DNA from: Companilactobacillus zhachilii
GTDB taxonomy: Bacteria > Bacillota > Bacilli > Lactobacillales > Lactobacillaceae
Reading direction: 5' to 3'
DNA: 64,000 bases
Assembly: GCF_003606365.2 (NCBI RefSeq)
Contig: NZ_CP031933.2
Location: forward strand, 62,001-126,000
The notes below the pieces were generated by a model. That model ran no database searches and was not told the origin of the DNA. It worked only from the letters and a program-made list of their open reading frames with translations. A program made the position numbers and the translations under genes. Shown piece after piece: positions 2,682 through 54,085 of this stretch; the first letter of the stretch is position 1; each line of letters opens with the position of its first letter.

Positions 2682-2857
2682 CCGCCTCTGGGTGCAAAAA
2701 ATTAGGTCACTGTGGGGACCGACCTGAGCCAAGGTCTCAGGTCTCGATTTTGAACTTTGAGAAAACCACTCAAATTTCAAAACTCGTCCCGTGGTGTAAG
2801 AGCTAAAGCTCTAACACCACCTTCACAGTGACCTAATTTTTTGCACCCAGAGGCTAG
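2682..2857 (+). repeat. Palindromic element copy 1 (A-B-C orientation)
   Basis: Outer arms of 31 bp (2684-2714 and 2824-2854) are perfect inverted repeats. Inside lie GGGAC/GTCCC closing pairs, hairpin A (GACCTGAG/CTCAGGTC), hairpin B (TTTTGAAcTTTGAG/CTCAAAtTTCAAAA) and hairpin C (GTGGTGT..AGAGCT/AGCTCT..ACACCAC). It fills most of the gap between hflX and oppA. The end reads GAGGCTAGGGTATTAG, shared with copies 5 and 8. No protein is supported here. Confidence 0.93.
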
Positions 2858-3060
2858 GGTATTAGATATATTTCAATTTTATTGTGTGTGAGGATAGAGT
2901 TTAAATTTTTGAGGGAAAATAAGCGATTGGTTGGACTGAAAGTAATAAATATTAAAAATTAAAAGATATTTTTTTATATGGTTCAAAGATTGGTTTTAAT
3001 AATAACCATTCTAAAACTAATCTTTGTTGGAAGAGACGAGGAGATATTTTTTGATAGACA

Positions 3061-3083
3061 CAAAAAAAGCAGAAATATCTGCT
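3061..3083 (-). terminator. Intrinsic terminator of hflX
   Basis: On the minus strand a 6-bp stem AGCAGA/TCTGCT with a 4-nt loop is followed by seven T. It begins at the hflX stop codon itself. Confidence 0.8.
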
Positions 3084-4375
3084 TAATCAGATACTTCTGC
3101 TTGGATATATTTATTAAATCTTTCTAATTCTTCAGGACTTAAATTAGCATTGATCAATGAACCATCATTGGTGAATTCTTTTTTTAGTACTTGAGAATTC
3201 TTCAAAATTTCTTCAGCAACTTTTTGGTCACTGTATGGAATCAATAGTTCAGCTTTCTTATAGTGGTTGAAAGTCTTGATTTTAATTAGGTCGACTAATT
3301 TGGCAATTGAAGCTTTATCGATGGCTGAATAGTAAATATTGTCACCTTCGATGGTAGGAAATTGTTGGCCAGGTTTGAGGTCAGCTTTGTTGAAAGCATA
3401 AATCATTGGCTTGTCAACGACACCAACTTCTTTCAAAGTCTTCTCGGTAACTTCGATCATGTTGCGCCAATGTTCATCGGACACATCGATTACTTGAATT
3501 AATAAGTCAGCGTTTTGAGCTTCTTGTAAAGTGGTCTTAAATGATTCCACTAGGTTGTGAGGCAACTTGCTGACGAAACCAACTGTATCGGAAAGCAAGA
3601 AGCTAGTGTTATCTTCTAAGTCAATTCGACGAACACTGGTATCGAGCGTTGCAAAGAGCATATTCTTTTCAAAAACTTTGCGGTCTTGAGAATTTTCCTT
3701 GTTGAAATTCAAGATACCGTTCATGGTTGTAGATTTGCCGGCGTTAGTATAACCGACTAGTGAAACAAGTGGTAGGGATGTATTGGTGCGACGTCTGCTT
3801 TGGACATCAATCGTTTTATCGACCGTTTTAAGTTCGTTACGTAAAGCGGTGATACGTTTGCGAATAACACGTCTATCCAATTCTAGTTTTGATTCACCGG
3901 CACCACGGTTAGCAAGACCACCTGAAGCTGATTGTTGATCAAGTGGGTTACCAGATGGATGGATTCTTGGTAGTTGATATTGTAATTTAGCAATTTCAAC
4001 TTGAAGTTTAGCCTGTTTAGTTTGGGCACGGTTAGAGAAAACTTGAAGGATCAATTCTGTTCGATCCATGAAACTCAATTTAGTTTCTTTTTCCAAGTTT
4101 CTAATTTGTGAAGGTGTCAATTCATCATTCAAAACGATAACTTGCACATCATCAGCGTTGGCGATTTCTTTAACCTCGTTTACTTTACCAGAACCAAAGT
4201 AAGTGGCACCGCTGACGCTATTGGCGTTTTGGATAATTGTATCAGCCACTTCCATATTGTTGGCTTCTACTAAAGCTGCTAGTTCTTGCATCGTATATTC
4301 GAAGTCAGGCTGTAGATGGCTAACTCCGGCGACGATGACACGTGTTTTTTCAAATGTTGATTTAGATTCAGTCAT
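3083..4375 (-). CDS. hflX: GTPase HflX
   Basis: A ribosome-associated GTPase of the Obg-HflX family that splits or rescues stalled ribosomes. Visible motifs are the N-terminal HflX domain (VIVAGVSHLQ), a glycine-rich linker with GAGESKLELDRR, G1 GYTNAGKST, G3 DTVGFV, and NKAD of G4. Full length is 430 residues. I set the start at MTESKS because AGGAGG lies 6 nt upstream of this ATG, while an in-frame ATG six codons earlier has no such site. Monocistronic, with its own terminator. Confidence 0.95.
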   Translation of the reverse strand: MTESKSTFEKTRVIVAGVSHLQPDFEYTMQELAALVEANNMEVADTIIQNANSVSGATYFGSGKVNEVKEIANADDVQVIVLNDELTPSQIRNLEKETKLSFMDRTELILQVFSNRAQTKQAKLQVEIAKLQYQLPRIHPSGNPLDQQSASGGLANRGAGESKLELDRRVIRKRITALRNELKTVDKTIDVQSRRRTNTSLPLVSLVGYTNAGKSTTMNGILNFNKENSQDRKVFEKNMLFATLDTSVRRIDLEDNTSFLLSDTVGFVSKLPHNLVESFKTTLQEAQNADLLIQVIDVSDEHWRNMIEVTEKTLKEVGVVDKPMIYAFNKADLKPGQQFPTIEGDNIYYSAIDKASIAKLVDLIKIKTFNHYKKAELLIPYSDQKVAEEILKNSQVLKKEFTNDGSLINANLSPEELERFNKYIQAEVSD

Positions 4376-4558
4376 AAATCCTCCTGGTGGCACTAATTAC
4401 CCCAGGGTAATAATGCCAATTTATTATTTATTGTTTGAAATGATATCAATTCTTAAGCGCATGATGAAAATACCATCCTTTCGATAAGCTGTATAAATAA
4501 TACCATGGAAGTTGGTTTTGCGCTATATAATAGGTAGAAAACGATTTTTACTGGGTGC

Positions 4559-4737
4559 GCCGCCTCCAAGAAAAAGAAATTTAGGCCGCTATGGGGACCG
4601 ACTGGAGCCATGGTCTCCAGTCTCGATTTTGAACTTCGAGAAAATCACTCGAATTTCAAAATTCGTCCCGTGGTGTAATGGCTAAAGCCATAACGCCACC
4701 TTCACAGCGGCCTAAATTTCTTGTTCTTTCCGGCTAG
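4559..4737 (+). repeat. Palindromic element copy 2 (A-B-C orientation)
   Basis: Ends GCCGCCTCC and CCGGCTAG. The outer arms pair AGAAATTTAGGCCGCT with AGCGGCCTAAATTTCT. Hairpin A is GACTGGAG/CTCCAGTC, B is TTTTGAAcTTCGAG/CTCGAAtTTCAAAA, C has ATGGCT/AGCCAT. It lies between the divergent genes hflX and the 93-residue protein, in a gap of about 500 bp that shows nothing else. Confidence 0.93.
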
Positions 4738-4873
4738 TTTTCTGGGATAGGATACAACTAGTTATTAGTAGCTATTCAGGATTAAAAATTAGAGTGTTCA
4801 AGATAAAGCTAATCTATCAGGATTAGTTTTTGGTATGTTTAGGACATTAAAAGAACTTGAGGTGCTGATTATA

Positions 4874-5155
4874 ATGGATAAGAAAAGTTTAATGGATTTG
4901 ATTGATACAACCGCAAATGAGGATGAAGTTAAGAGTGATACGGGTCTCTCAAGTGCTTTGTTAGTAGCGTATCGTGATTTGAATGATGATAAGGAAATTA
5001 GAAATGTAGTTCGAAAATTAGGTAGCGCTCTTTCAGCTTATTTAATGACCCATCAATATAAGGCATCGCCATCGGTTATGAATTTGGCAAAAGTTGTTCA
5101 AAAAGATGATCAAAACTTTTGGAAGGGTACTGGCTTAAGTAAATTGTTTTGGTAA
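4874..5155 (+). CDS. Small helical protein, bacteriocin-immunity-like
   Basis: A 93-residue cytoplasmic, helix-forming protein (MDKKSLMDLIDTT...). The segment VRKLGSALSAYLMTHQYKASPSVMNLAKVV resembles the C-terminal half of enterocin-A-type immunity proteins (PF08951). These usually have 90-105 residues and form four-helix bundles that protect the producer's mannose PTS. No bacteriocin precursor is beside it. Start chosen at the ATG with TTGAGGTG nine bases upstream; an earlier in-frame ATG at 4835 lacks a site. The family call is from my reading of the pattern and is tentative. Confidence 0.5.
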   Translation: MDKKSLMDLIDTTANEDEVKSDTGLSSALLVAYRDLNDDKEIRNVVRKLGSALSAYLMTHQYKASPSVMNLAKVVQKDDQNFWKGTGLSKLFW

Positions 5156-5162
5156 AAAGGAG

Positions 5163-5264
5163 CGTGGAAGACAAAATATAGCTTTTCCCGCTGAAATTAA
5201 AAAACTAGCAATCCAAATCGGATTACTAGTTTTTTTACCTTGGTACTCGAAAGCTGACCGTGTT
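5163..5264 (+). repeat. Second palindromic repeat family, copy 1, with internal terminator hairpin
   Basis: GTGGAAGACAAAATATAGCTTTT at one side faces AAAGCTGACCGTGTTT at the other. The centre is CTAGCAATCC/GGATTACTAG flanked by A and T runs, which works as a bidirectional intrinsic terminator (5194-5237). The same layout recurs at 23041-23154. It separates the convergent genes ending at 5155 and 5271. Confidence 0.7.
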
Positions 5265-5270
5265 TAGTAA

Positions 5271-5477
5271 TTATAAAGTTGGCGTTTCATCTTTATCCTT
5301 TTTAGGCTTAGGCTTGTGAAAGAGACTTAGTAAGAAGAAAACAATTGCCGAAATGATAAAGATAGCATCAACTAATAGCCATGTTGATTTTGTTGAATGG
5401 TCAATAAAAATAATTCCTACAACTAGCATAGCCACGCCATACCAGAAGTTAATTGTCTTATAAAATAGTTTATTCAT
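5271..5477 (-). CDS. Small membrane protein, two helices, unknown function
   Basis: A 68-residue protein (MNKLFYKTINFWYGVAMLVVG...). Two hydrophobic segments, roughly residues 10-27 and 35-52, are followed by a lysine-rich tail (KPKPKKDKDE) that should lie in the cytoplasm. I recognise no family. Start placed at the ATG with GGAG nine bases upstream; the longer reading frame extends 17 codons upstream without a site. Convergent with the immunity-like gene and separated from it by the terminator repeat. Confidence 0.6.
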   Translation of the reverse strand: MNKLFYKTINFWYGVAMLVVGIIFIDHSTKSTWLLVDAIFIISAIVFFLLSLFHKPKPKKDKDETPTL

Positions 5478-5596
5478 TCTAATATCTCCAAAATTGTGAA
5501 ATGTATACGTTTTATTATACACCATCAAAATAAGAGAGAGTTTAAAGTAAATAGTACTGAATATGTTATACGGATAATTTTATTTTAACGATAACT

Positions 5597-5769
5597 CAGT
5601 CGGAAGAGAGGGACAATAGTAGCAGGCAGTGAAAGTGGCGTTATGGCTTTAGCCATTACACCACCGGGCGTGTTTGGAGACTTGCTTGCAAGGCTTCAAA
5701 CCGAGACCTGAGACCTTGGCTCAGGTCGGTCCGTACTGCCAGTTACTATTGTTCCGCTCTGGAGACGGC
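5597..5769 (-). repeat. Palindromic element copy 3 (C-B-A orientation)
   Basis: Outer arms pair ACAATAGTA/TACTATTGT and GGCAGT/ACTGCC. Hairpin C is GTGGCGTTATGGCT/AGCCATTACACCAC, hairpin B GTTTGGAGaCTTGC/GCAAGgCTTCAAAC, hairpin A GACCTGAG/CTCAGGTC. The closing pair is CGGGC/GTCCG, which needs a G-U pair as RNA on this strand. The right end is GGAGACGGC. Confidence 0.92.
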
Positions 5770-5806
5770 ACGTATATATATATCATTAATACAAAAAATC
5801 TTCATC

Positions 5807-5848
5807 AAAATCGTATCTATTAATCCCAAAATCGGTTATATTAATATA
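5807..5848 (+). repeat. 21-bp tandem repeat in front of the 116-residue ORF
   Basis: Two adjacent 21-bp units share AAAATCG-N5-ATTAAT (5807-5827 and 5828-5848). They end 15 bp before the ATG at 5864. A period of two helical turns fits a regulator site, but no regulator is known. Confidence 0.55.
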
Positions 5849-5863
5849 CGGGTGAAAAGACAA

Positions 5864-6214
5864 ATGGAATATTCTAAACAAAAACTATTGCTTTCGATAT
5901 TGATCAAGTTCGATGAATCATTTAACAGTCAAATTAATGAATCAGCGGTTAATCAAGAGATAGGGCAATTTATCAAGCTATCTGTCCAAGAACTCTCAGA
6001 GAAGCAGTATCGTGGTTCACTGTTTGATGAAAAGATTGATTATATCATTAGCAAAGTTAATCATGAGCGTAATGCTAATAAATTGGTCTTCAATGATTAT
6101 ACAGGTCGTTTATGGGACCAAATTTTACAAATAAAACAACGGACAACTAGCTTTGAAACAGCTTATTCTTTGATAGATATCCTAAATAGCAAAAATGCTT
6201 CTCTTAAATTATAA
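5864..6214 (+). CDS. Small helical cytoplasmic protein, possibly immunity-like
   Basis: A 116-residue protein (MEYSKQKLLLSILIKFDES...) with no signal peptide or membrane segment and mostly helical character. It resembles small bacteriocin-immunity proteins in size and composition only; I cannot place it in a family. Start taken at the ATG preceded by GGGTGAAAAG; a GTG four codons earlier is the alternative. A 21-bp tandem repeat lies just upstream. It is convergent with the membrane protein gene ending at 6227 and shares its terminator. Confidence 0.5.
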   Translation: MEYSKQKLLLSILIKFDESFNSQINESAVNQEIGQFIKLSVQELSEKQYRGSLFDEKIDYIISKVNHERNANKLVFNDYTGRLWDQILQIKQRTTSFETAYSLIDILNSKNASLKL

Positions 6215-6228
6215 GAGAGGCATTTTTT
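6191..6228. terminator. Bidirectional terminator
   Basis: AAAAATGC-TCTCTT and AAGAGAGGCATTTTTT form a hairpin with A and T runs on both sides. It serves the convergent genes ending at 6214 and 6227. Confidence 0.8.
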
Positions 6229-6817
6229 AGTTAAAACTGACGTTGTTGTGGTTTGGATAATTAATAATTTTAATTTGCGAGTCATCAAGGCTATCGAAGA
6301 ATTGATTTAATTTTTCGATGGTCTTTTTGTTATCATAGGCAAAATCACGAGAAACGCTTAGCTCGATGGTTTGACCATCTGTCATAACTAGATTTAACGT
6401 GATAGGATTCTTGAGCATTGAAAGTAGTGGCGTCAAAACGGCAAAGTAGCCGGTAACTTCGAGAGGAGTAGTGATTTCATCAGGATTATTAATCTTACCT
6501 GTAACGGTGATTGATTGAATATCCTTCTTATTAATCGTGACTAGTTGATTTTTGTGTGGCACTAGAATCATTGAAATGCGGCGCTTGTAAGTGGTCATAT
6601 CATTGTAACTGATTGTATCTTGGTCTGCTTCCCAGTAATTAAAAATAAGAGGTAAATTTGGCAAATAGTAAGCCAATAAAACAGTTAAGAAGACTGCCAA
6701 ACTTACTAAGTACATAATTGGAAAGTGACCAGCAATGGCCGCGATAAGTGGAATCAATGTGAAATAAAAACTAACTAAGATAGGTCTATAAGAAACTTTT
6801 TTACCGAATTTTAACAT
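6227..6817 (-). CDS. FGKK-family membrane protein, paralogue 1
   Basis: Member of a family with seven copies in this window, unknown to me. It opens with MLKFGKKVSYRPI, has two membrane helices (about 12-55), then a soluble part with the shared blocks YWEADxxTIxYND, INKKDIxSITVTG, LTPLLSMLKNPI and SRDFAY...KTIxKLNQFF. The soluble part looks like a small beta-rich domain, perhaps PH-like; that is a guess. Start set at MLKFG because paralogues begin there and AAGGAAGG precedes it. Its promoter has the GTGCGTGCAT-N18-TATAAT layout. Confidence 0.7.
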   Translation of the reverse strand: MLKFGKKVSYRPILVSFYFTLIPLIAAIAGHFPIMYLVSLAVFLTVLLAYYLPNLPLIFNYWEADQDTISYNDMTTYKRRISMILVPHKNQLVTINKKDIQSITVTGKINNPDEITTPLEVTGYFAVLTPLLSMLKNPITLNLVMTDGQTIELSVSRDFAYDNKKTIEKLNQFFDSLDDSQIKIINYPNHNNVSFN

Positions 6818-6875
6818 GATAATTACCTTCCTTTTAAGATATTCATTCATGAATGATTCCTTTGACTACACCTAA

Positions 6876-6922
6876 ATTATAGGAATCTATTAGGTAAAAA
6901 TGCACGCACTTATCGGTTGCAA
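6876..6922 (-). promoter_or_regulatory. Promoter of FGKK paralogue 1 with GTGCGTGCAT motif
   Basis: On the minus strand: TTGCAAC, 6 bp, GTGCGTGCAT (6900-6909), 18 bp, TATAAT (6876-6881). The same spacing occurs at 7584-7630 and, for the decamer and -10, at 19659-19692. The decamer sits where a -35 box should be. Confidence 0.75.
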
Positions 6923-6931
6923 TGAGTCTTT

Positions 6932-7537: not shown

Positions 7538-7583
7538 GATAATTACCATCCTTTTTTTCTGATATCCCTTTGAATACAACTAA

Positions 7584-7630
7584 ATTATATGGATTAACCT
7601 CGGGCTTATGCACGCACATAAAAGTTGCAA
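7584..7630 (-). promoter_or_regulatory. Promoter of FGKK paralogue 2 with GTGCGTGCAT motif
   Basis: Minus strand: TTGCAAC (7624-7630 region), 6 bp, GTGCGTGCAT (7608-7617), 18 bp, TATAAT (7584-7589). The spacers differ in sequence from those of paralogue 1, but their lengths are identical. Confidence 0.75.
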
Positions 7631-7660
7631 GTTATTTAGCTACCGTTATAACGGTAAGAT

Positions 7661-8263: not shown

Positions 8264-8300
8264 AGGATTACCTTCTTTAATTCGTTTTCTTGATAATCAT

Positions 8301-8364
8301 AATTTACCATCATTGAATGAAAGCGAATTCAAAACATCCTGAACCAAGCAAATCTGTTCCTGAA
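8301..8364 (-). promoter_or_regulatory. LytTR-type direct-repeat promoter of paralogue 3
   Basis: On the minus strand TTCAGGA occurs twice 21 bp apart (8358-8364 and 8337-8343). A -10-like TAAATT (8301-8306) follows exactly 30 bp later. The same spacing is found at three other promoters of the island. Such repeats are the known binding pattern of AgrA/PlnC-type regulators. Confidence 0.7.
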
Positions 8365-8367
8365 ACA

Positions 8368-8560: not shown

Positions 8561-8745
8561 CTAGCCGGAAAGAGCAAGAAATTTTGGTCGCTGTGAAGGT
8601 GGCGTTGGCGCTTTAGCGTCTACACCACGGGACGACTTTTGAAATTCGAGCGGTTTTCTCGAAGTTCAAAAGCGAGATTCGAGACCGTTCTTTGGCTCGA
8701 ATCGGTCCCCATAGCGACCAAAATTTCTTGCTCTTGGAGGCGGCA
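8561..8745 (-). repeat. Palindromic element copy 4 (C-B-A orientation)
   Basis: Starts CTAGCCGG and ends GGAGGCGGCA. Outer arms pair GAGCAAGAAATTTTGGTCGCT with AGCGACC...CTTGCTC. Hairpin C is GTGGCG..GGCGCT/AGCGTC..ACACCAC, B CTTTTGAAaTTCGAG/CTCGAAgTTCAAAAG, A GATTCGAG/CTCGAATC. It sits in the 3' untranslated region of the response regulator gene, 18 bp after the stop. Confidence 0.92.
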
Positions 8746-9513: not shown

Positions 9514-10790
9514 TTGATTACCTCCTTGGTAATTAGTGTGATGTGTAGACGAAACCATTTAGCATTTTTACTGTGTTGGATAAAAATATTCGAGTATTTT
9601 TTCTTTAAATCTTTAATCTGAAGCAGTTCTAAATAATCCTTTGAACGTTCAGTAGTCGGTAAGTTGGCTAAAGAATTGTTGATTAAAAATGCTAACTGCC
9701 GGTCTTCCTTGGTGATAGCCAGTTGAATCTGACCGTGTTCTTGTCGCTTGGTGAAATGAATGGCGTTATCAATTGCCTGGTCCAAAAGTTTAATCAAGTC
9801 CAAATCGTTCATCGGTAAATTATTCAATTCATCGGTACAACTGAAAGAACATTTAATGTTTTTTTGATTGATAGTATTGAGTTTATTGATAAAAAGACTT
9901 TTTAAGTAAGGATTCTTAACATTATTGAGATCCTGATATAAATCCATTGATAAATTATTTAAATAATCGTCTGAATAATTCTCTAAATTGTCCAAGGCCT
10001 GATTCATGGCGGTGTAATCTTGTTCAGCAGCAACCGTTTTCAGACTGAAAAGTAAATTTTTATAATCATGTTTAAAATGACGTAATTTTAATTGATCGTG
10101 CTCGAGTTGGTCGGTGTACATTTTGAGATTTTTAACTTGTTCTTCAGAAAATCGGTCACGATAAATTTTTAATTGGCGTCGTCGGGTAATTGTGAAAACA
10201 ACGATAATAAAAAGACACTGTAAAATAATAAATCCGAAGATTCCCATAATTAGTGGAGCATAAGTCCGAAAATTTTGAGTTAATTTCAAAAATAAGAAAC
10301 AAATGATGTAGATATATCCTAGTACAATGCTGGTCATAGGATTTTGCCGTGATTGGAAGAAGTCATTGAGTTTAAAATAATTGTAAAAATAGACGAATGT
10401 GATGGATAAGATGAATTCGACAAGACTAATAATTAGGTTAAATCCGTACGAAACGATGTTGGAATTGGGGAAATAATGCATGAGAAGGGGGCTTGGTAAA
10501 ATAAAAGCCCAGAATTTTACGAGGAAACTCACTAAGATGATATTAATTAAATAATAATCAAACTTTTGGTCTGGCCAAAGGACTAAATAAATTAAGATGG
10601 CGATTAGTAAATTGGCGTATCCGCTTAGCAAAATATTTAAAATAACTGAGAGCAACCACAATAAGGCAAAACTAAACGTTTGCCGCTGAATTGATAACTT
10701 TGAATGATAAATTAACATGAATACGTAGTAAAAGATTCCCCAAGCCAAGCAAATACGTAATAAATGCGGCCCTGTTATAAATAAATTCAT
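9510..10790 (-). CDS. AgrC-type sensor kinase 1: His present, ATP-binding G-box lost
   Basis: 426 residues. About 200 N-terminal residues form six or so membrane helices of the peptide-sensing HPK10 subfamily. A coiled linker leads to the phospho-acceptor motif FKHDYKN with His241. The N-box keeps DNAI (341-344). The G-box, GLGL in its neighbour, reads YLEL (386-389), and the ATP lid is about ten residues shorter. It should accept phosphate but probably cannot bind ATP normally. It lies downstream of kinase 2 and overlaps the regulator gene by 4 bp. Confidence 0.85.
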   Translation of the reverse strand: MNLFITGPHLLRICLAWGIFYYVFMLIYHSKLSIQRQTFSFALLWLLSVILNILLSGYANLLIAILIYLVLWPDQKFDYYLINIILVSFLVKFWAFILPSPLLMHYFPNSNIVSYGFNLIISLVEFILSITFVYFYNYFKLNDFFQSRQNPMTSIVLGYIYIICFLFLKLTQNFRTYAPLIMGIFGFIILQCLFIIVVFTITRRRQLKIYRDRFSEEQVKNLKMYTDQLEHDQLKLRHFKHDYKNLLFSLKTVAAEQDYTAMNQALDNLENYSDDYLNNLSMDLYQDLNNVKNPYLKSLFINKLNTINQKNIKCSFSCTDELNNLPMNDLDLIKLLDQAIDNAIHFTKRQEHGQIQLAITKEDRQLAFLINNSLANLPTTERSKDYLELLQIKDLKKKYSNIFIQHSKNAKWFRLHITLITKEVIK

Positions 10791-12893: not shown

Positions 12894-13074
12894 GCCGCCT
12901 CTGGGTGCAAGAAATGTTGGCGCTGTGGGGACTGATTGGAGCCGGAGCGCGGTCTCCAATCTCGATTTTGAACTTCGCAAAGTACACGAATTTCAAAATT
13001 CGTCCCGTGGTGTAATGGCTGAAGCCATTACACCACCTGCACTGCTGCCAACATTTCTTGCACCCAGAGGCTGG
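12894..13074 (+). repeat. Palindromic element copy 5 (A-B-C orientation)
   Basis: Ends GCCGCCTCTGGG and CCCAGAGGCTGG. Hairpin A is GATTGGAG/CTCCAATC with a 12-nt loop, B TTTTGAAcTTCG/CGAAtTTCAAAA, C GTGGTGTAATGGCT/AGCCATTACACCAC (perfect). It lies between the convergent genes ending at 12881 and 13210. The open reading frame crossing it is an artefact of the repeat. Confidence 0.92.
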
Positions 13075-18236: not shown

Positions 18237-18428
18237 ATGAGATTCAATAGTAATTTTTATAAAGGAAAATACTTTTGGATAGGAATTTTGGGGCTAACAT
18301 TTTTGGCCGATTTCCCGTGGAATAATGTCTGTACGATTCAAGGGATTACTTCTTTGATAATGGTAGTTGCTGGTGCAGTGTGCTTGGTTGGATCTATGTT
18401 TAATTTTTCCAAGTATTTCAATTCGTGA
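18237..18428 (+). CDS. Small membrane protein under the direct-repeat promoter
   Basis: 63 residues (MRFNSNFYKGKYFWIGILG...). Hydrophobic segments lie at about 13-25 and 37-55. There is no double-glycine leader, so it is not a typical class II bacteriocin precursor. AAGGGG ribosome binding site. The clear regulated promoter in front argues that it is a real gene. Possible roles are immunity, an atypical peptide or a membrane regulator; sequence alone does not decide. Confidence 0.6.
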   Translation: MRFNSNFYKGKYFWIGILGLTFLADFPWNNVCTIQGITSLIMVVAGAVCLVGSMFNFSKYFNS

Positions 18429-18430
18429 GG

Positions 18431-18606
18431 TCCTCCGGGAGAGCGGGATTTAACTTACTGAGGGACCGGCTCGAGCCAAGGTCTCGAACCTCGATTTTGA
18501 GCCTTGCATAGACCGCAAGTCTCAAAATACGTCCGTGGAGTAAGAACGGAAAAGCGCCGTTCTTACTCCACTTTCACAGCAAGTTAAATCCCGCTCTCCC
18601 TCCGGT
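18431..18606 (+). repeat. Palindromic element copy 6 (A-B-C orientation)
   Basis: Outer arms pair GAGAGCGGGATTTAACTT with AAGTTAAATCCCGCTCTC. Hairpin A is GGCTCGAG/CTCGAaCC, B TTTTGAGcCTTGC/GCAAGtCTCAAAA, C GTGGAGTAAGAACG/CGTTCTTACTCCAC. It begins 2 bp after the stop of the 63-residue gene and forms an inverted pair with copy 7. Confidence 0.92.
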
Positions 18607-18849
18607 TTGTTGTAGGCTACGTATTAGGTTGATTACAAATAATAAATAAAGTTTTAAAATAGATTTTCAGTTATGATGCCATATTTTTTAGAGTATAAAA
18701 ATAGCAACTACCGTATGTTTCAAGTTCAATATCATTATGTAAAAAAACAACGAATGAACAAGGGTCTGTCTTCCAACTAGTTTGATAAGAATTTACTCTG
18801 ATACGGATAAATATTTGAAGTATCAACCTATTCTTGAGTTAATAAAGAA

Positions 18850-19036
18850 CTAGTCGGAAGATTTGGACAGTGGTTACTGGCAGTGAAAGTGGTGTTAGGA
18901 CGACCGTTTTTGTCGTTCTTACAGCACCGGGCGCGTTTAAGACTTGCCGAACTTGCAAGGCTTAAACCGAGGTCCGAGACCGTGGCTCTGGCCGTTCCGC
19001 ACCGCCAGTAACCACTGTCCAAATCTGGAGACGGCA
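18850..19036 (-). repeat. Palindromic element copy 7 (C-B-A orientation)
   Basis: Starts CTAGTCGGAAG and ends GGAGACGGCA. Outer arms pair GATTTGGACAGTGGTTACTGGC with GCCAGTAACCACTGTCCAAATC. Hairpin B is GTTTAAGaCTTGC/GCAAGgCTTAAAC; hairpins A and C have a few mismatches, so this is the most decayed full copy. Its CTAG end faces that of copy 6 across about 240 bp that contain no supported gene. Confidence 0.9.
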
Positions 19037-25712: not shown

Positions 25713-25892
25713 GCCGCCTGTGGGTGCGAGAAATTGAGTTCTGCTGTGGGGACCGACGAAAGCCAAGGTCTTTCGTCTCGATTTTGAACTTCGAGAAGAC
25801 CGCTCGAATTTCAAAACTCGTCCCGTGGTGTAATGGCTAAAGCCATAACGCCACCTTCACAGCAGACTCAATTTCTCGCACCCACAGGCTAG
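25713..25892 (+). repeat. Palindromic element copy 8 (A-B-C orientation)
   Basis: Ends GCCGCCTGTGGGTGC and GCACCCACAGGCTAG. Hairpin A is GACGAAAG/CTTTCGTC, B TTTTGAAcTTCGAG/CTCGAAtTTCAAAA, C ATGGCT/AGCCAT inside GTGG..CCAC. Between the divergent permease and BceAB-type genes. Confidence 0.93.
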
Positions 25893-32136: not shown

Positions 32137-32314
32137 CTAGCCTTCGGGAGCGGGAAAATCTGGCAGCAGTGAAGGTGGCGTTAGGGCTTTAGCCCTTACA
32201 CCACGGAACGAGTTTTGAAATTCGCGTACTGTGCGAAGTTCAAAACCGAGGTTGGAGACCTTGGCTCCGACCGGTTCCCACAGCAGCCTGATTTTTCCGC
32301 TCCCGAAGGCGGCA
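32137..32314 (-). repeat. Palindromic element copy 9 (C-B-A orientation)
   Basis: Ends CTAGCCTTCGGGAGCGG and CCGCTCCCGAAGGCGGCA. Hairpin C is GTGGCGTTAGGGCT/AGCCCTTACACCAC (perfect), B TTTTGAAaTTCGC/GCGAAgTTCAAAA, A GGTTGGAG/CTCCgACC. Directly upstream of the T-box promoter. Confidence 0.93.
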
Positions 32315-32360: not shown

Positions 32361-32384
32361 TGATGTCAATCAAATAAACAAATA

Positions 32385-32612
32385 TAAGTGTCTGAAACAA
32401 TTAGTAATGTATCTGGGTGTAAGAAAGCCGGTGGTTGATGCGAACCGGTCAGGGTGCAGTTATGAAATACCAGGCATGACTTGGTTTTGCCAAGCGGAAA
32501 AAGAGAGCCGTTATTCTCAAGAGTGGAGTAATAGTTTATTTAACTATTCTCAAGCTGGGTGGTACCACGGTAAATCGTCCCTGTTGCATATTTGCAGCAG
32601 GGACTTTTTTTA
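32385..32612 (+). ncRNA. T-box riboswitch, probably tyrosine-specific
   Basis: AGTA motif, stem I apex with AAGCCGG..GATGCGAACCGG, specifier region GAAATAC closed by CTGG/CCAG, T-box GGGTGGTACCACGG at 32557-32570, and terminator GTCCCTGTTGC/GCAGCAGGGAC plus seven T (32577-32612). The codon in the specifier position reads TAC (32468-32470), Tyr. The discriminator T in TGGT fits A73 of tRNA-Tyr. Uncharged tRNA-Tyr would allow readthrough into the transporter gene. Confidence 0.9.
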
Positions 32613-34257: not shown

Positions 34258-34441
34258 CTAGCTGGAGGAGATGGGGACCGAAGGTACCAGCAGTGAGAGT
34301 GGCGTTAGGGATTTATCCCTTACACCACCGGGCGTGTTTGGAGACTTGCCGAACTTGCAAGGCTTCAAACCGAGACTCGAGACCTTGGCTCGAGTCGGTC
34401 CGCACAGCAGGTACCTTCGGTCCCCATCTCCGGAGGCGGCA
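34258..34441 (-). repeat. Palindromic element copy 10 (C-B-A orientation)
   Basis: Starts CTAGCTGGAGGAGATGGGGACCG and ends CGGTCCCCATCTCCGGAGGCGGC. Outer arms are nearly perfect over about 34 bp. Hairpin C is GTGGCGTTAGGGAT/ATCCCTTACACCAC, B GTTTGGAGaCTTGC/GCAAGgCTTCAAAC, A GACTCGAG/CTCGAGTC. Confidence 0.93.
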
Positions 34442-38543: not shown

Positions 38544-38598
38544 AAAATAGCCGTCATAAAAAGTAGGATTGGACTACTTTTTATGACGGCTATTTTAT
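38544..38598. terminator. Bidirectional terminator
   Basis: A 20-bp stem (ATAGCCGTCATAAAAAGTAG and its complement) with a GATTGGA loop, A run on the left and TTTTATT on the right, between the convergent YbaK and LysR genes. Confidence 0.85.
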
Positions 38599-40981: not shown

Positions 40982-42688
40982 ATGGATAATAAAAAAATTG
41001 TTGTTGTTGGTGGAGTTGCTGGTGGAGCATCAGCAGCGGCACGTGCACGTCGATTAGATGAATTTGCAGATATTACAATGTTTGAAAAGGGACCTGATGT
41101 TTCTTTTTCTAACTGTTCATTGCCATATCATTTAAGTGGATTGATTCCCGATGCAGATAGTATCGTTTTAATGAACCCTACGCAATTTAAACATCAATAT
41201 GCGATTGATGCTGAAGTAAATTCTGAAGTTGTTGATGTAGATTCAGATAAAAAAGAAGTTGAAGTTAAAAATACACAAACGGGTGAGATAAAACAGGTCC
41301 CATATGACGAATTAATTTTGTCACCAGGAGCTAATCCGATTTTACCAAGTTGTATTAAAGGAATTGATAACGACAACGTTTTTACAGTCCGCAATGTTGT
41401 TGATATCAAGAAAATTCAAACATACTTGGAAGTTAATAATGTAACTGATGTAGCTATTATTGGTGGAGGATTCATCGGTTTAGAGGTCTGTGAAAATTTG
41501 GCACAAACTGATAAAAAAGTTTCCTTAATTGAAGCTTCTAGTCATGTTATGGGAACCATTGATGATGATTTTGCTGAATTAGTTCATAAAGAACTTTATG
41601 ATCATGGAGTTAATGTTGTCTTAGATGATGGTTTGGCTGAAATTACGGATAGTAATGTGAAATTAGGTTCAGGTCGAGAAATAAAGGCTCAAGCAGTAAT
41701 TGTAGCTATTGGTGTTAAACCAGATACGACGTTAGCAAGTAAAATCGGTTGTAAGTTAGGGTTAACCGGTGGAATTGCAGTTGATCAACATTATCAGACA
41801 TCAATTCCAGATATTTATGCTGTCGGAGATGCCATTGAAGTTACACATATGATTACTCGTAAAAAGACCCGTTTGGCCTTAGCTTTCCCAGCTCAAATGG
41901 AAGCAAGAGATGCTGTTGACCATATTTACGGTCGTACAGTTGAAAATAGAGGTGTTATTGGTTCTCAAGCTATCCATATTTTTGATATAAACGTTGCTTC
42001 AACAGGATTAACTGAAAGTGAATGTCAAAAGGATGGCATAGATTATCGTACAGCTACCGTTATTCCAAAGAATCAAGTAGGTTTGATGCCAGATGCAACG
42101 CCGTTATACTTAAAATTGATTTTTGGTTACCCAAGTGGTGAAGTTCTAGGTGCTCAAGCATTAGGTAAGTCAGATGTTGATAAACAAATTGATATCGTTG
42201 CAACGATGATTTCCATGCATGGTCATATTTCCGATTTGACACATTTGGAAGTTTGTTACTCACCTTGGTTCAGTACGGCTAAGAATGCTGTAAATATGGC
42301 GGCATTAGTTGCAGAGAATATTTTGAATGGTGAATATCAACAGGTCCAAGTTAGCGATGTACGTAAACTTGTTGAGGGTGGCGCATTTATTATTGATGCC
42401 AGAGAACCAAAAGAATATGAAGAAGGACATCTTACAACTTCAGTTAATATTCCACTTAGCCAATTCCGTCAACGTTTAGATGAAATTCCAATGGATCGAC
42501 CAGTATACGTACACTGTTTATCTGGCCAACGCAGTTATAATATGGTTCGTGCTTTAAATAACCGTGGTTATAAGAATGTCATTAATATTTCAGGTTCATA
42601 TTTGGAAATTTGCGAGTATGAGTATTTTAAAGATCAAACAACAGATCGTAAACCAATTGTGACAAACTATCGTTTTGATTTATTGTAG
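40982..42688 (+). CDS. CoA-disulfide reductase-rhodanese fusion (NADH-dependent persulfide/polysulfide reductase)
   Basis: 568 residues. FAD-binding GGVAGGASAAARARR at 10-24, redox Cys45 in SFSNCSLPYHL, NAD-binding IIGGGFIGLEV near residue 160, and a C-terminal rhodanese domain with Cys512 in HCLSGQRS. CoADR-Rhd enzymes reduce CoA persulfides or polysulfides with NAD(P)H. Here it should process the sulfane sulfur brought in or released by the neighbouring transporters. GGGAGG ribosome binding site 15 bp after the transporter gene. Confidence 0.9.
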   Translation: MDNKKIVVVGGVAGGASAAARARRLDEFADITMFEKGPDVSFSNCSLPYHLSGLIPDADSIVLMNPTQFKHQYAIDAEVNSEVVDVDSDKKEVEVKNTQTGEIKQVPYDELILSPGANPILPSCIKGIDNDNVFTVRNVVDIKKIQTYLEVNNVTDVAIIGGGFIGLEVCENLAQTDKKVSLIEASSHVMGTIDDDFAELVHKELYDHGVNVVLDDGLAEITDSNVKLGSGREIKAQAVIVAIGVKPDTTLASKIGCKLGLTGGIAVDQHYQTSIPDIYAVGDAIEVTHMITRKKTRLALAFPAQMEARDAVDHIYGRTVENRGVIGSQAIHIFDINVASTGLTESECQKDGIDYRTATVIPKNQVGLMPDATPLYLKLIFGYPSGEVLGAQALGKSDVDKQIDIVATMISMHGHISDLTHLEVCYSPWFSTAKNAVNMAALVAENILNGEYQQVQVSDVRKLVEGGAFIIDAREPKEYEEGHLTTSVNIPLSQFRQRLDEIPMDRPVYVHCLSGQRSYNMVRALNNRGYKNVINISGSYLEICEYEYFKDQTTDRKPIVTNYRFDLL

Positions 42689-48985: not shown

Positions 48986-49138
48986 TATGAAAAAATGTCC
49001 TCCTCAATATATGTAACACATTGTGCTAGTTGCCCCTCAGAGCAATTATTATACTTTGTAATTCGTAAACTACACTGCACGTTAATCATAGTTTACTACA
49101 TTAGATGCTACTTGTATTTTTTCAACTAGTGGTTTGTT

Positions 49139-49792: not shown

Positions 49793-49902
49793 AAGTTCCG
49801 CCTCCCAGCACGATAAGTTTACTATATTGGAGCCAATTTCTTGGTGATTTTGCTTAGAAATATGTAAAGTAAGTTTGTTGAAAGAAATTGGAGGCATTAA
49901 TT

Positions 49903-50523
49903 ATGAAAATAGCCGTTATTGGTGCAAATGGTAAAGAAGGTTCCTTGATTGTTAAGGAAGCCTTGAGTCGAGGCTTAGATGTAACTTCGATCGTACGTGA
50001 TGCGAAGAAGTCACCGACAGACGAATATTTAGTTCGGGATGTTTATAGTTTACAAGCTGAGGATATTAAAAACTTTGATGTTTTAGTTGATGCGTTAGGA
50101 TTCTTTGGACCAGCTGTGAAAGAATATGTTCCAGCAACGAAACATTTGATTGAAATCATTGGTGGTTCAAAGACAAGATTATTAGTAGTTGGTGGAGCAG
50201 GATCATTGTATCTTGACGAAACCCATACAAAAAAGCTTTATCAACAGGCTGATTTTCCAGAGGTAGTTAAGCCCTTGAGTGAAGAAATGGATAAATCATT
50301 GGATGTTTTGCGCGAAAGCAAGATTGATTGGACGTTCATTAGTCCGGCTGCCGATTTCCAAGCAGATGGTGAACGTACTGGTAAATATGTCTTAGCTGGT
50401 GAGGAACTAACTTTCGATGCCGATGGTAAAAGTGAAATCAGTTACGCTGACTTTGCCATTGCGATGGTCGATGAAATTGTAGAGGCAAAACATTCTAAAA
50501 AACGTATTAGTGTAAGGTGGTAA
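49903..50523 (+). CDS. NAD(P)-binding Rossmann protein (YwnB/NmrA-like)
   Basis: 206 residues. The start MKIAVIGANGKEGSLIVKEAL carries the GxxGxxG nucleotide-binding motif. The atypical short-chain-dehydrogenase core continues with VDALGFFGPAVKEY and WTFISPAADFQADGERTGKY. Often annotated NAD(P)H-binding or flavin-reductase-like. GGAGG site 8 nt before the ATG. It is followed within 5 bp by a flavodoxin, a likely redox partner. Confidence 0.82.
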   Translation: MKIAVIGANGKEGSLIVKEALSRGLDVTSIVRDAKKSPTDEYLVRDVYSLQAEDIKNFDVLVDALGFFGPAVKEYVPATKHLIEIIGGSKTRLLVVGGAGSLYLDETHTKKLYQQADFPEVVKPLSEEMDKSLDVLRESKIDWTFISPAADFQADGERTGKYVLAGEELTFDADGKSEISYADFAIAMVDEIVEAKHSKKRISVRW

Positions 50524-50527
50524 TTGA

Positions 50528-50968
50528 ATGAAGATATTGTTAACTTATACCAGTTTGACTGGTCGTAATGAGGAAATAGCCAAACATTTGGCAGATTATT
50601 TAAAGGATAAAGGTGCTGATCTTGATTTGGAGCAAATCGTTGATACAGATGCCTTTGGTTTAAGTGACTATGACGCCGTTATAGTGGAAACATACACTTA
50701 TCATGATGGTGAAGTGCCTGACGAAGCACAGGATTTCTATGAAGATTTAGCTGATGTGGATTTAAAGAGAACTAAATTTGCGGTGTTAGGGTCTAGTTCG
50801 AAGACCCATTTACACTTTGGTAGAGCCGTTGATTACTTCACGATGCAACTGAACTCTAGCAATGGTGAACAGGTTGCTGACTCTGTGAAGATTGACCGTG
50901 ATCCTGATGAGGATGATTATAAGCGAGTTGAAGCCTTGGGTGATTATATACTGAAAAGTTTGAAATAA
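50528..50968 (+). CDS. Flavodoxin
   Basis: 146 residues, MKILLTYTSLTGRNEEIAKHLADYL with the FMN phosphate-binding T/S-x-T-G-N/R-x-E motif, then VIVETYTYHDGEVP and a conserved FAVLGSSSKTHLHFGRAVDYF. A small electron carrier in the cytoplasm. GGTGG ribosome binding site lies inside the end of the preceding gene. Confidence 0.88.
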   Translation: MKILLTYTSLTGRNEEIAKHLADYLKDKGADLDLEQIVDTDAFGLSDYDAVIVETYTYHDGEVPDEAQDFYEDLADVDLKRTKFAVLGSSSKTHLHFGRAVDYFTMQLNSSNGEQVADSVKIDRDPDEDDYKRVEALGDYILKSLK

Positions 50969-50976
50969 CAAATTAC

Positions 50977-51019
50977 GAAAAAATATCGAAAATTCTTATG
51001 GATTTTCGATATTTTTTTT
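50977..51019. terminator. Bidirectional terminator
   Basis: AAAAAATATCGAAAAT/ATTTTCGATATTTTTTTT stem, loop TCTTATGG. Confidence 0.8.
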
Positions 51020-51100
51020 ATGAGAACACTTTTTAACTTGTTTATAAAAAGTACCTCGGATAACATAAAATTATAAATACAGTTAGGGGGATTCAAGGGG

Positions 51101-51820
51101 ATGGCTAGTTTTATAAGTATGGTGGCATTTGGATTTATGATTTATTATGCCATTAGACTGTTCAAAGGTCATAAGGTAAGAGTAACAAGCCGAGCTAATA
51201 AGAAACTAAAGAAGCGCTATCAAGTGGGTTTGGTTATTAGTATGTTTATTATGCTGATTTTTGGGAGTATGAGTAGTCGTAACGAAACTACTTCCAAGCA
51301 GTCAAGCAGTGCCGATACGACTAAGGTTGTTAAGAAACCCAAATATGTTGGTAAAGACAAGTACGATATTGCTAAGAAAGAAAATGTTGCTTTGTTAGCT
51401 AAGCAAAAAAAATTGCGGGCTAAAGAAGATAAACTGCAAGAACAACAGGATAAAATCGCTAGTGATGAAGCCGAGGCTAAGCGTAAGGAACAAGAACAAC
51501 AAGCTACTGCCCAAAAGGAGCAGGAGGCACAAGCAAAGGCTGCTCAAAAGCAAGAACAAGAAGCTGCCGCTCAACAAAAACAACAAGAAGAAGAACAACA
51601 ACAATCACAACAATCACAACAATCACAACAATCTGCTTCACAGACGCAAACTAGGGGAGATATGAATACGTCTGACACAGGAACAATTGTTGGAAATTCC
51701 AAAACCGGTGTTTATCATATGCCTGGTCAAGCTGGTTATCGCATGAACTCTGCTAATGCAGTTTACTTTCACAGTGAACAAGAAGCAATTGCTGCCGGTT
51801 ATAGGAGGGCCAAGAGATAA
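51101..51820 (+). CDS. Membrane protein with Gln/Glu-rich coiled coil and nuclease-associated C-terminal motif
   Basis: 239 residues. Two membrane helices (about 3-20 and 42-57), a charged coiled coil (80-150), a low-complexity QQSQ stretch (165-180) and a C-terminal motif VGNSKTGVYHMPGQAGYRM...FHSEQEAIAAGYRRAKR. That motif often occurs at the ends of thermonuclease-like and DNA-entry nuclease proteins (I believe it is called the sunset domain). It is coupled to the next nuclease gene by a TAATG overlap. Confidence 0.7.
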   Translation: MASFISMVAFGFMIYYAIRLFKGHKVRVTSRANKKLKKRYQVGLVISMFIMLIFGSMSSRNETTSKQSSSADTTKVVKKPKYVGKDKYDIAKKENVALLAKQKKLRAKEDKLQEQQDKIASDEAEAKRKEQEQQATAQKEQEAQAKAAQKQEQEAAAQQKQQEEEQQQSQQSQQSQQSASQTQTRGDMNTSDTGTIVGNSKTGVYHMPGQAGYRMNSANAVYFHSEQEAIAAGYRRAKR

Positions 51821-52656
51821 TGAAAAAATTAGTTAAACTTTTAGTGCTATTATCTTTATTTCCAGCAACAACTGCCGTGACAACGCAAAGTCAGGCAGCT
51901 ACTAAGAGTAATGTTAGAACTGAATATGTAAAGAATTATTCTTATCAAAAGAAGACTAAGAAATTAGTTGCTAAAAATAAGAAATTAAAAAAATCAATTG
52001 CTAAATTACAACAAGAAATTGCTGATAAACAAAAAGCGGTTGATCAACATGAAAATAAACCTACACAAACTGCCGATAATACTGATTTAGCTAATATGGA
52101 TTATAATGGAACTCAAGAAATTGTGGTTAATAACAATAATCCTAAGTTTTCTAATGAGGATTTAAGTACAGCTAAAGGTGCTTGGCAACAATATGGCGAC
52201 CTAGATAATCTTAACCGAGTCACAGCTGCTAATGCATTATTGAACGTTTCATTGATGCCAACAGCTAAACGGGAGCCATTGCATTGGAATCCAACTGGCT
52301 GGCATAATAAGCGTATTAATGGTGGTTGGTTGTACAATCGTAGTCATTTGATTGGTTATCAACTGACTGGTCAAAATAATAATCCTAAGAATTTGATGAC
52401 AGGAACACGCTCATTGAATAGTCCTGAGATGTTAGCTCATGAAATGGATATTGCTTATTACTTGAAACAAAGCAGTTCAAATTATATTAGATATCGAGTT
52501 ACACCAATTTTCCGTGGGGATGAGTTGTTACCTCGTGGTGTTCAAATGGAAGCTCAATCAATTGGGAGTAATTCAGTTCACTTCAATGTTTATATTTTCA
52601 ATGTGCAAAATGGTGTAACGTTGAATTATAACGATGGTACAAGCCAAATAGGGTAA
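51820..52656 (+). CDS. DNA/RNA non-specific endonuclease (EndA-like), secreted
   Basis: 278 residues. Signal peptide (to about QSQA, residue 26), a Lys-rich coiled coil (40-70), then the beta-beta-alpha metal nuclease domain with YNRSHLIGYQLTGQNNNPKNLMTGTRSLN. The usual DRGH active-site motif reads NRSH here, a form I believe is common in lactobacilli. Likely a cell-surface nuclease for DNA uptake or nutrition. Co-translated with the membrane protein upstream. Confidence 0.85.
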   Translation: MKKLVKLLVLLSLFPATTAVTTQSQAATKSNVRTEYVKNYSYQKKTKKLVAKNKKLKKSIAKLQQEIADKQKAVDQHENKPTQTADNTDLANMDYNGTQEIVVNNNNPKFSNEDLSTAKGAWQQYGDLDNLNRVTAANALLNVSLMPTAKREPLHWNPTGWHNKRINGGWLYNRSHLIGYQLTGQNNNPKNLMTGTRSLNSPEMLAHEMDIAYYLKQSSSNYIRYRVTPIFRGDELLPRGVQMEAQSIGSNSVHFNVYIFNVQNGVTLNYNDGTSQIG

Positions 52657-52685
52657 AAAAAAGACGATCATTGATCGTCTTTTTC
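52655..52685. terminator. Bidirectional terminator
   Basis: AAAAAAAAGACGATCA/TGATCGTCTTTTT perfect stem between convergent nuclease and MerR genes. Confidence 0.85.
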
Positions 52686-53086
52686 TATGTGCTAAATCTA
52701 CGTGCAGCGCTTAAACTGTCCGTTTTTTGACCCTTAATAATCTTCTCTTCAAGTTCAATTTTGCTTTCCAAACGTTGCAGCCGTTCGGAAGACTCGTCAA
52801 CATCTTGTTGAGCCTTTTCATATTGATTCAAAAGCATCTCATGACGCTTTCTCAATGCTGCTGGACCAGTTTGTTGGCTTAACTGAATATAGGTTTGAAT
52901 TTCAGAAAGTGAGGAACCAAGTTCCCGCTGAAATTTGATTCCCTCGAGCCATAAAACAGCTTCACCATCAAAAATTCTTTCACCATCGACATCGCGCCGC
53001 AAAGAAGGCACCATACTTAAGTCACAGTAATAACGAATAGTAGGGACAGTCAAGCCAACTTTTTTACTTACCTCAGAAATTTTCAA
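52685..53086 (-). CDS. MerR-family transcriptional regulator
   Basis: 133 residues. N-terminal HTH (MKISEVSKKVGLTVPTIRYYCDLSMVPSLRRD) and a long coiled-coil dimerisation helix (about 75-120). No cysteines for metal binding are seen at the C-terminus, so it is of the AdhR-like organic or stress-sensing kind. Start TTG with GGATGTGATC upstream. Target unknown. Confidence 0.8.
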   Translation of the reverse strand: MKISEVSKKVGLTVPTIRYYCDLSMVPSLRRDVDGERIFDGEAVLWLEGIKFQRELGSSLSEIQTYIQLSQQTGPAALRKRHEMLLNQYEKAQQDVDESSERLQRLESKIELEEKIIKGQKTDSLSAARRFST

Positions 53087-53243
53087 GAGTGATCACATCC
53101 TTTACCATGAGTATTTTTTTATCAAAATAAAGGATAGCATGTTTTTTCACAAGTAAAGGTTACAAAACGCTGTAAGTACTTGAGGAAAAATGGATTAGCC
53201 GTGTGTAAGTAAGGAAGTGCTAGATAGTAAAATACGGAATGTA

Positions 53244-53280
53244 CAAAAAAGCGGACAATCACTGTGATTATCCGCTTTTG
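53244..53280 (-). terminator. Intrinsic terminator
   Basis: GCGGACAATCAC/GTGATTATCCGC stem with A run to the left, so T run on the minus strand. Confidence 0.75.
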
Positions 53281-53598
53281 TTATTTCTCTTTAGACTTGC
53301 TAGTTGCTTTTTTATAGATTGAATTAATGATAAAGGCTATTACAACTATCATAAATACAAAAGTAACAACGGTATTTATATAGCCCAGATTAGCCGGTAA
53401 TGTGACAAAATTCATTAAGGTAATGTAAACGCAGTAAATAGCGATAAATGTTAAAAGAATCGTATCAGCAGTCCAAACCTTATCTTTGTCACGATGTGAG
53501 TATTTTGAAATCATATAGATAATGTAAATAACAATTAAAAGCACCGCAACCATTGATGTAATGGCATTTCGGGCTAGTTCAAAGTTAGCAGGTACCAT
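53281..53598 (-). CDS. Membrane protein with three helices, unknown function
   Basis: 105 residues (MVPANFELARNAITSMVAVLLIVIYIIYMI...). Hydrophobic segments lie at about 15-32, 48-64 and 74-93, with a charged Lys-rich tail. GGGGGTAAAACTAC precedes the ATG. I do not recognise the family. Palindromic copy 11 lies directly upstream. Confidence 0.6.
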   Translation of the reverse strand: MVPANFELARNAITSMVAVLLIVIYIIYMISKYSHRDKDKVWTADTILLTFIAIYCVYITLMNFVTLPANLGYINTVVTFVFMIVVIAFIINSIYKKATSKSKEK

Positions 53599-53644
53599 GT
53601 AGTTTTACCCCCAGATAAAATGTCTAAATAAGTGTTTTTGTTTT

Positions 53645-53824
53645 TGCCGTCTCCAGAGCTGAGAAATGATTGCTTGCTGTGCGGACTGGCCTGAGCCAAG
53701 GTCTCAGACCTCGGTTTGAAGCCTTGCAAGTGCGGCAAGTCTCCAAACACGCCCGGTGGTGTAATTGCTAAAGCAATAACGCCACTTTCACAGCAAGTAA
53801 TCATTTCTCAGCTCTTCCGACTAT
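53645..53824 (+). repeat. Palindromic element copy 11 (A-B-C orientation)
   Basis: Starts TGCCGTCTCCAGAGC and ends GCTCTTCCGACTA. Outer arms pair GAGCTGAGAAATGATTGCTTGCTGTG with CACAGCAAGTAATCATTTCTCAGCTC. Hairpin A is GGCCTGAG/CTCAGaCC, B GTTTGAAGcCTTGC/GCAAGtCTCCAAAC, C ATTGCT/AGCAAT inside GTGG..CCAC. Inverted pair with copy 12. Confidence 0.93.
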
Positions 53825-53912
53825 TTTGTTGGTTAGATTGATGTTGATTGGTATAGGGTTTTTAAATAAGAATTTAATTCCCAATACTAAATATATTATC
53901 ATATCAAAATAC

Positions 53913-54085
53913 ACTAGCCGGAGGGAACAAGAAAATTGGGCAGCAGTGCAGGTGGCGTTAGGGCTTTAGCCCTTACACCACAGGACGAGTTTTGAGACTT
54001 GCTTGCAAGGCTCAAAATCGAGACTGGAGACCTTGGCTCCAGTCGGTCCCCACAGCAGCCTAATTTTCTTGTTCCCGGAGGCGGA
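53913..54085 (-). repeat. Palindromic element copy 12 (C-B-A orientation)
   Basis: Starts CTAGCCGGAGGGAACAAG and ends CTTGTTCCCGGAGGCGGA. Hairpin C is GTGGCGTTAGGGCT/AGCCCTTACACCAC, B TTTTGAGaCTTGC/GCAAGgCTCAAAA, A GACTGGAG/CTCCAGTC. Its CTAG end faces that of copy 11 across 88 bp. Confidence 0.93.

Follow-up and report, generated by a model that had tools for sequence, protein, structure and literature searches.

EFAR elements of Enterococcus are about 170 bp long, palindromic, intergenic, mobile and mosaic, and have stem-loops as their targets; the original description is reportedly that of Venditti 2007. They are cited in the consulted part of PMC3733652. Efa-1 of Enterococcus faecalis is, in the consulted part of PMC2267715, an intergenic family of adjacent stem-loops, which its authors describe as a double hairpin. 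Two further systems are the doublets of repetitive extragenic palindromic sequences (REP dimers or REPINs) and the miniature inverted-repeat transposable elements (MITEs) of the ISPepr1 subgroup of the insertion sequence (IS) family IS4. Here, we compare with these systems a family of palindromic modules, twelve copies of which lie in a stretch of 64,000 nucleotides of Companilactobacillus zhachilii (contig NZ_CP031933.2, positions 62,001 to 126,000; the whole stretch is called the window below).

Compared by description only, the module is like EFAR in size, palindromy, intergenic place, mobility and mosaicism. It is found in another host genus, and stem-loops as targets were rejected here, since the inverted repeats flanking closely spaced module pairs (doublets) equal those of shuffles. 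Likewise by description, and as far as the excerpt on Efa-1 goes, both families consist of intergenic adjacent stem-loops, Efa-1 being a double hairpin. A literature search, covering mainly openly readable journals and top results, found no description of the module family. In our judgement, the best explanation, with a probability of roughly two in three, is that the twelve copies are members of a large non-autonomous MITE-like family of mobile DNA, whose units are moved in trans, whose ends have eroded in the window, and whose doublets arose by deletion.

The module and its copies in the window

The module has a length of about 180 bp and consists of a long outer stem enclosing three inner hairpins. 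A covariance model with 177 positions and 66 pairs was built from the twelve copies; its search of the window returned exactly twelve full copies scoring 144 to 185 bits, and beyond these one weak fragment of 35 nt and seven shadows of the copies on the opposite strand. All copies listed by an earlier sequence-only reading are thus present where it had placed them (Table 1), and the plan it had proposed, an outer inverted repeat, GGGAC/GTCCC, and hairpins A, B and C, holds. Single-copy folding gave a z-value of -10.0 for copy 10 as RNA and of -11.7 for copy 2 as DNA, which excludes chance for these two. By eye, GCCGCC or GCCGTC is exact at one end in nine of the twelve copies and CTAG at the other in eight; copy 6 has neither, so that the terminal motifs stand and their uniformity is weaker than had been read. 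The statement that all copies avoid genes survives in part: after removal of open reading frames (ORFs) below 600 bases that overlap modules, no kept ORF of at least 75 aa overlaps any window copy by more than 30 bases, while ORFs of 82 and 87 aa overlap copies 7 and 9, respectively. Module copies occur in all gene contexts, and a role as gene-end structure was rejected, as the directions of neighbouring genes roughly match the background. Concerning an intrinsic terminator, in which a T run directly follows the hairpin, the T fraction at positions +1 to +25 after CTAG of 56 solo copies of C. zhachilii is 0.50, and the T runs are interrupted in the sequences.

Copy number and distribution

The genome of C. 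zhachilii (one contig, 2.71 Mb) contains 126 copies in 464 kb. A genome-wide search gave at least 150 copies, and the 464-kb count combined with the matches listed by that search amounts to at least 232 distinct ones. In a 400-kb stretch with 114 copies, 40 were among the matches listed; extrapolating from this rate suggests a total of about 430. The orientation of 158 known copies leans to the plus strand before approximately 1.1 Mb and to the minus strand thereafter, and perhaps follows the direction of replication.

Proteins related to HflX of the window are mostly from Companilactobacillus, and the closest named one is that of C. nantensis (97% identity). Among 60 relatives, including C. 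zhachilii itself, 32 genomes had a match; these were 29 of 36 Companilactobacillus genomes, the other seven having none, and three of the 24 others. A search of the order Lactobacillales, which applied strict filters and scored the best candidates (nine at most per genome), found matches in at least 22 of 295 genomes, belonging to 11 of 74 genera and five families; in many of these genomes, the match is single and weak. All five checked loci of the genomes G040, G048 and G037 carry the hairpin-A apex GAGCCWWGGTCTC exactly, as do only three of 23 other representatives. With one module copy as query, plasmids and phages gave no match.

Empty sites and complete units

Syntenic stretches of four species were compared. 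Eleven copies are missing from at least one relative at a site that closes almost seamlessly (gap of -19 to +7 bases); within the window, clean empty sites were found for copies 1 and 9, and for two further copies the relatives have no counterpart at the site (Table 1). Copies 1, 3, 9, 10, 11 and 12 have orthologs in C. nantensis at distances of 0.10 to 0.20. In the clean cases, 75 to 295 bp of extra DNA lie on the CTAG side and 3 to 20 bp on the GCC side (76 to 80 bp for one copy); the DNA inserted on the CTAG side indicates that more than the module was inserted. Captured foreign DNA as the source of these tails was partly rejected: 57 of 116 tails of C. zhachilii match elsewhere in the 464 kb, many of the matches being other tails and spacers. 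At locus L071, a 22-nt remnant, GCCACCATCAGTCGGAGGCTAG, lies upstream of the module at 9579-9759 and comprises both module ends with almost no interior.

Complete units were found in C. huachuanensis. Their length is about 320 bp: 14-bp terminal inverted repeats, CTAAAGGTTGAAAG, enclose the module, one of them 27 bp ahead of GCC and the other some 100 bp beyond CTAG; the CTAG side includes an AT-rich stretch. Allowing one mismatch, the repeat occurs 465 times in this genome, compared with five occurrences of the reversed control; exact copies number 220, versus four in C. zhachilii, and are present in 11 of 36 Companilactobacillus genomes. From 20 loci fetched for their inverted-repeat spacing, 20 units of at most 340 bp with both ends were obtained, 19 of which hold a module. 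A direct repeat of at least 7 bp flanks 13 of the 20 (six of 7 bp, five of 8, one of 9, and one of 10 with a mismatch); for module-bearing units, a target duplication of this length was seen in 12 of 19. In C. huachuanensis, the module thus rides in MITE-like units.

The same or nearly the same terminal repeats bound larger elements. L314 (genome G019; 1475 bp) has exact ends, whereas L318 (1442 bp) and L321 (1451 bp), both from C. huachuanensis, have up to two mismatches per end; L298 of the same species (1052 bp) combines exact ends with a broken transposase. In the elements of 1442 to 1475 bp, overlapping frames code for an IS4-type transposase: the IS4 transposase model NF049925 scored above its cut-off in two reading frames (L318, L321), and the YREK motif was present in both of the scanned frames of these loci. 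The covariance model detected no module in any of the four elements. A DDE_5 domain was found in three of 36 Companilactobacillus genomes, twice above the cut-off.

These findings resemble the description of ISPepr1 in the consulted part of PMC2266710 in the CT ends, the duplications of mostly 7 or 8 bp, the AT-rich targets and the YREK transposase. The subgroup is further described by a size of 1500-1600 bp and the end consensus YT-AA-YTT---A; by eye, seven of the eight stated bases agree, and the elements are slightly small. Unlike the case of the ISPepr1 MITEs, the module is absent from the transposase-bearing elements, and the window copies lack the ends. Empty and filled sites, the high copy number, and the inverted repeats and target duplications that accompany complete units in a sister species all support the suggestion of the sequence-only reading that this is a structured mobile element.

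How firmly the transposon reading applies to the window

According to the explanation preferred here, an IS4-type transposase would move units of about 320 bp in trans, and the window copies would be older or decayed members with eroded ends and a preserved module. The module may have been kept by structural selection, or by arm-to-arm copying (template switching) combined with exchange between copies. New units would insert into the AT-rich DNA on the CTAG side of older ones; same-direction neighbours, being direct repeats, could later be lost by deletion, so that convergent doublets remain in the other genomes.

A number of observations weigh against this explanation. The 20 units stem from loci selected for the very spacing of their repeats, seven of them show no target duplication, and no clear duplication was seen by eye at the elements of 1442 to 1475 bp. 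None of the twelve window copies is flanked by the CTAAAGGTTGAAAG inverted repeat, and few other copies of C. zhachilii are. When the left flank was compared with the reversed right flank for the 126 copies of C. zhachilii, 10 scored at least 10, which is no excess over the null of 7.8%. Other module-rich genomes are nearly devoid of exact CTAAAGGTTGAAAG matches as well (G029, three; G008 and G004, none). The genome of C. zhachilii contains no DDE_5 transposase; the other transposase families searched there were PF01797 and PF07282 only. Modules that are 96 to 97% identical within one genome have little in common outside the module, and at some sites sister species carry unrelated modules. In G029, the copy at 60061 has the inverted repeat (with two mismatches) and its 96%-identical relative at 41953 does not; such alike modules with unlike flanks suggest module exchange rather than transposition of whole units. 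Some spacers are common to several doublets, which would fit the doublet as moving unit, and among eight close neighbours in the selected C. huachuanensis loci, only three are convergent and five point in the same direction. In addition to transposition of units, it is likely that modules are exchanged from site to site or that they move by a second route. For the window copies, the mobilising enzyme is one that we infer from the homology of the modules.

An alternative is that the module is an exchangeable cassette, spread by ectopic gene conversion or another route free of these inverted repeats, and only captured by IS4-type units in C. huachuanensis and, elsewhere, by an element of ISL3 type. 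Modules that are nearly identical but have unrelated flanks argue for it, as does the finding that the same-genome copy was the closer one in 38 of 46 site-matched comparisons, some of which do not involve true orthologs; by eye, moreover, the flanks of copy 7 resemble those of the other subfamily. Conversion alone, however, cannot increase copy number, and the clean empty sites and target duplications demand insertion. We consider this cassette explanation unlikely.

The ISL3-type element is found in genome G040, where five module copies have identical scores and lie, in the loci examined, inside this element, which is a further argument for the cassette. Two loci of G040 (L179 and L191) are identical over 1810 bp, and in L179 the module is placed just behind an ISL3-family transposase gene. 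The element contains the hairpin-A apex GAGCCAAGGTCTC and a multi-hairpin fold; the difference is that here the module resides within another transposon family, behind the transposase gene. The module is thus present in more than one transposon family. Another genome, G314, has four equal-scoring copies. It is conceivable, and we regard it as tentative, that unrelated transposons of the order Lactobacillales (IS4-type units, an ISL3 element, and doublets whose ends are not known) have a portable DNA structure, the module, in common, whose fold is kept by arm-to-arm block copying rather than by compensation base by base, and which is useful to its carriers.

Doublets

In six stretches, 62 of 65 neighbours less than 450 bp apart are convergent, with CTAG inside. 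The arrangement tracks neither gene direction nor the similarity of the mates, and several doublets have spacers that can be aligned from one end to the other. At the GCC ends, no adjacent direct repeats of 8 bp were found, and there was a weak excess at 3 and 6 bp. On the transposon reading, the difference between C. huachuanensis and the other genomes may be due to the loss of direct repeats with time.

Inverted doublets, hairpins formed by single strands and a high copy number are also what would be expected if the doublets were REPIN-like and mobilised by a Y1 transposase, which acts on single strands. The consulted parts of PMC3116915 and PMC3733652 describe REPINs and REP dimers as inverted doublets of high copy number and intergenic hairpins, with singlets as remnants, and in these respects the module is similar. 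It differs in being far larger, in its three inner hairpins, in the target duplications of the sister species (7 to 9 bp in C. huachuanensis), and in that no RAYT-type transposase was found: Y1_Tnp (PF01797) has no match in the genome of C. zhachilii, whereas five of 14 control genomes were positive. In addition, mates are as unlike as random copies, for which reason an origin of doublets as inverted duplicates was rejected as well; in G029 the mates are perhaps even less alike, the observed distance being reached in 55 of 2000 shuffles. We therefore regard a REPIN-like mechanism as most improbable.

Several other candidates were rejected. Clustering gave no clear rule of two fixed mate types. 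A spacer derived from the 3' end of a lost gene was considered for a 43-residue reading found in 31 places; it occurs in C. zhachilii alone among the 36 genomes, in short frames and often with stops. The interval of a widely spaced pair holds genes for an amino-acid permease, a ribosomal protein, rimM and trmD-type proteins, that is, host genes and no autonomous element. A tnpB gene (OrfB_IS605, 389 aa) lies between a convergent module pair at L200 2377-4414 (161377-163414 of the C. zhachilii genome). TnpB was rejected as driver: its numbers do not track those of the module, and none was found in the module-rich genomes G009, G010, G015, G020 and G023.

Paired changes and the possibility of an RNA

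In an alignment of the twelve copies that was not fitted to the structure, 94.0% of the structural cells are paired, compared with 78.8% after shuffling and 34.4 to 45.7% for slid versions; the latter comparison favours the tested structure, which was derived from the consensus of this alignment. Two-sided changes were counted in 141 cells, versus 46.7 ± 5.4 in shuffles, and one-sided changes to a standard pair are restricted to six cells; the number of further pair types (62 versus 61.1) shows no excess. The values exceed the available controls on four of five measures, which upholds the earlier observation that arms differ between copies and yet stay paired.

Ten orthologous pairs, compared in both directions, allow such changes to be followed. 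Of 1304 structural pairs (17 gapped cells were excluded), 1062 are unchanged; in 130 both partners differ and again form a Watson-Crick pair, in 104 a single partner differs, and eight changed otherwise; the unpaired positions differ in 11.5%. The two-sided changes are clustered: there are 19 adjacent doublets of changes versus 5.6 ± 2.1 (none of 5000 shuffles) and, for consensus pairs with variability-weighted shuffles, 16 versus 7.3 ± 2.3 (one of 3000). Copy 10 and its ortholog differ by an indel and by a block of some ten arm positions, changed jointly in both arms. The paired changes at orthologous sites are genuine but clustered. Such clusters and the matching indel are what template switching or conversion would do, so that the caveat of the sequence-only reading, namely that template-switch correction could create paired changes, has gained weight; gene conversion between copies could yield clustered two-sided changes likewise.

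The strong fold and the covariation would also be expected of a structured regulatory or small RNA under selection for pairing, and the T-G pair of hairpin C, which is present in 131 copies and would be A-C if read on the other strand, fits such an RNA. One-sided changes, however, show no G-T bias: at orthologous sites, 24 are G-T, 32 A-C, 33 other mismatches and 15 Watson-Crick pairs, and in 223 copies, read on the module strand with the hairpin-C pair set aside, 250 A-C cells face 132 G-T cells. The latter ratio of about two would appear as a G-T excess if the same cells were read on the reverse strand. The lack of a G-T excess over A-C and the clustering favour block changes at the DNA level over slow compensation in an RNA. 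No Rfam family matches the copies, although the same e-value setting did recover a T-box from another part of the window, and the presence of copies in all gene contexts and of empty sites does not fit an RNA either. We thus judge an RNA, which the sequence-only reading had left as an option, to be highly improbable.

Features of the window

Coordinates are compiled in Table 1. The T-box leader is located at 32375-32585 on the plus strand, upstream of a gene of the Na+/H+ antiporter family, and scores 71 bits (gathering score 93). An inverted repeat at 38544-38596, with perfectly matching arms of 23 bp and a loop of 7 nt, lies outside any module copy.

Table 1. Module copies and associated features in the window (window coordinates).
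Feature	Position	Strand	Basis
Module copy 1 (ends TCCGCC / CTAG)	2681..2857	+	model match; empty site in G029 and C. huachuanensis (G009)
Module copy 2	4559..4737	+	model match, DNA fold
Hairpin A of copy 2, apex GAGCCATGGTCTC at 4605-4617	4600..4622	+	fold
Hairpin B of copy 2	4626..4662	+	fold
Hairpin C of copy 2 (GTGGTGT..ACGCCAC)	4670..4699	+	fold
Module copy 3	5596..5769	-	model match; C. nantensis ortholog
Module copy 4	8561..8744	-	model match; no copy at site in three relatives, junction not clean
Module copy 5	12894..13074	+	model match; no copy at site in three relatives, junction not clean
Module copy 6, left half of convergent doublet, lacking both terminal motifs	18428..18609	+	model match
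Doublet spacer; part beside copy 7 homologous to spacers of other doublets	18610..18849	+	spacer comparison
Module copy 7, right half of doublet with copy 6	18850..19035	-	model match
Module copy 8; next to its CTAG side, by eye, a shortened remnant in inverted orientation that ends at GGAGACGGC	25713..25892	+	model match
Module copy 9	32137..32313	-	model match; C. nantensis ortholog, C. huachuanensis site empty
Module copy 10	34258..34440	-	model match; C. nantensis ortholog, block of paired changes and matching indel in outer arms
Module copy 11, left half of convergent doublet	53646..53824	+	model match; C. nantensis ortholog
Doublet spacer between copies 11 and 12	53825..53913	+	doublet count
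Module copy 12, right half of doublet with copy 11	53914..54085	-	model match; C. nantensis ortholog

Conclusions

The family to which the twelve copies belong is real and large, and the searches made here found no description of it; its most fitting label is that of a structured MITE-like mobile element, whose enzyme is named for the sister species alone. A very abundant repeat of lactobacilli thereby gains a likely origin and a candidate enzyme. The example also indicates that covariation by itself is no proof of an RNA. Orthologous palindromes let paired changes be followed, so that compensatory selection can be separated from template switching. The patchy occurrence, which extends to five families of the order, prompts the question of what maintains the fold. 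If the module is indeed portable, mobile elements would have in it a cassette that is defined by its structure, and its benefit to the carriers might, for example, consist in stalling or insulating replication or transcription.

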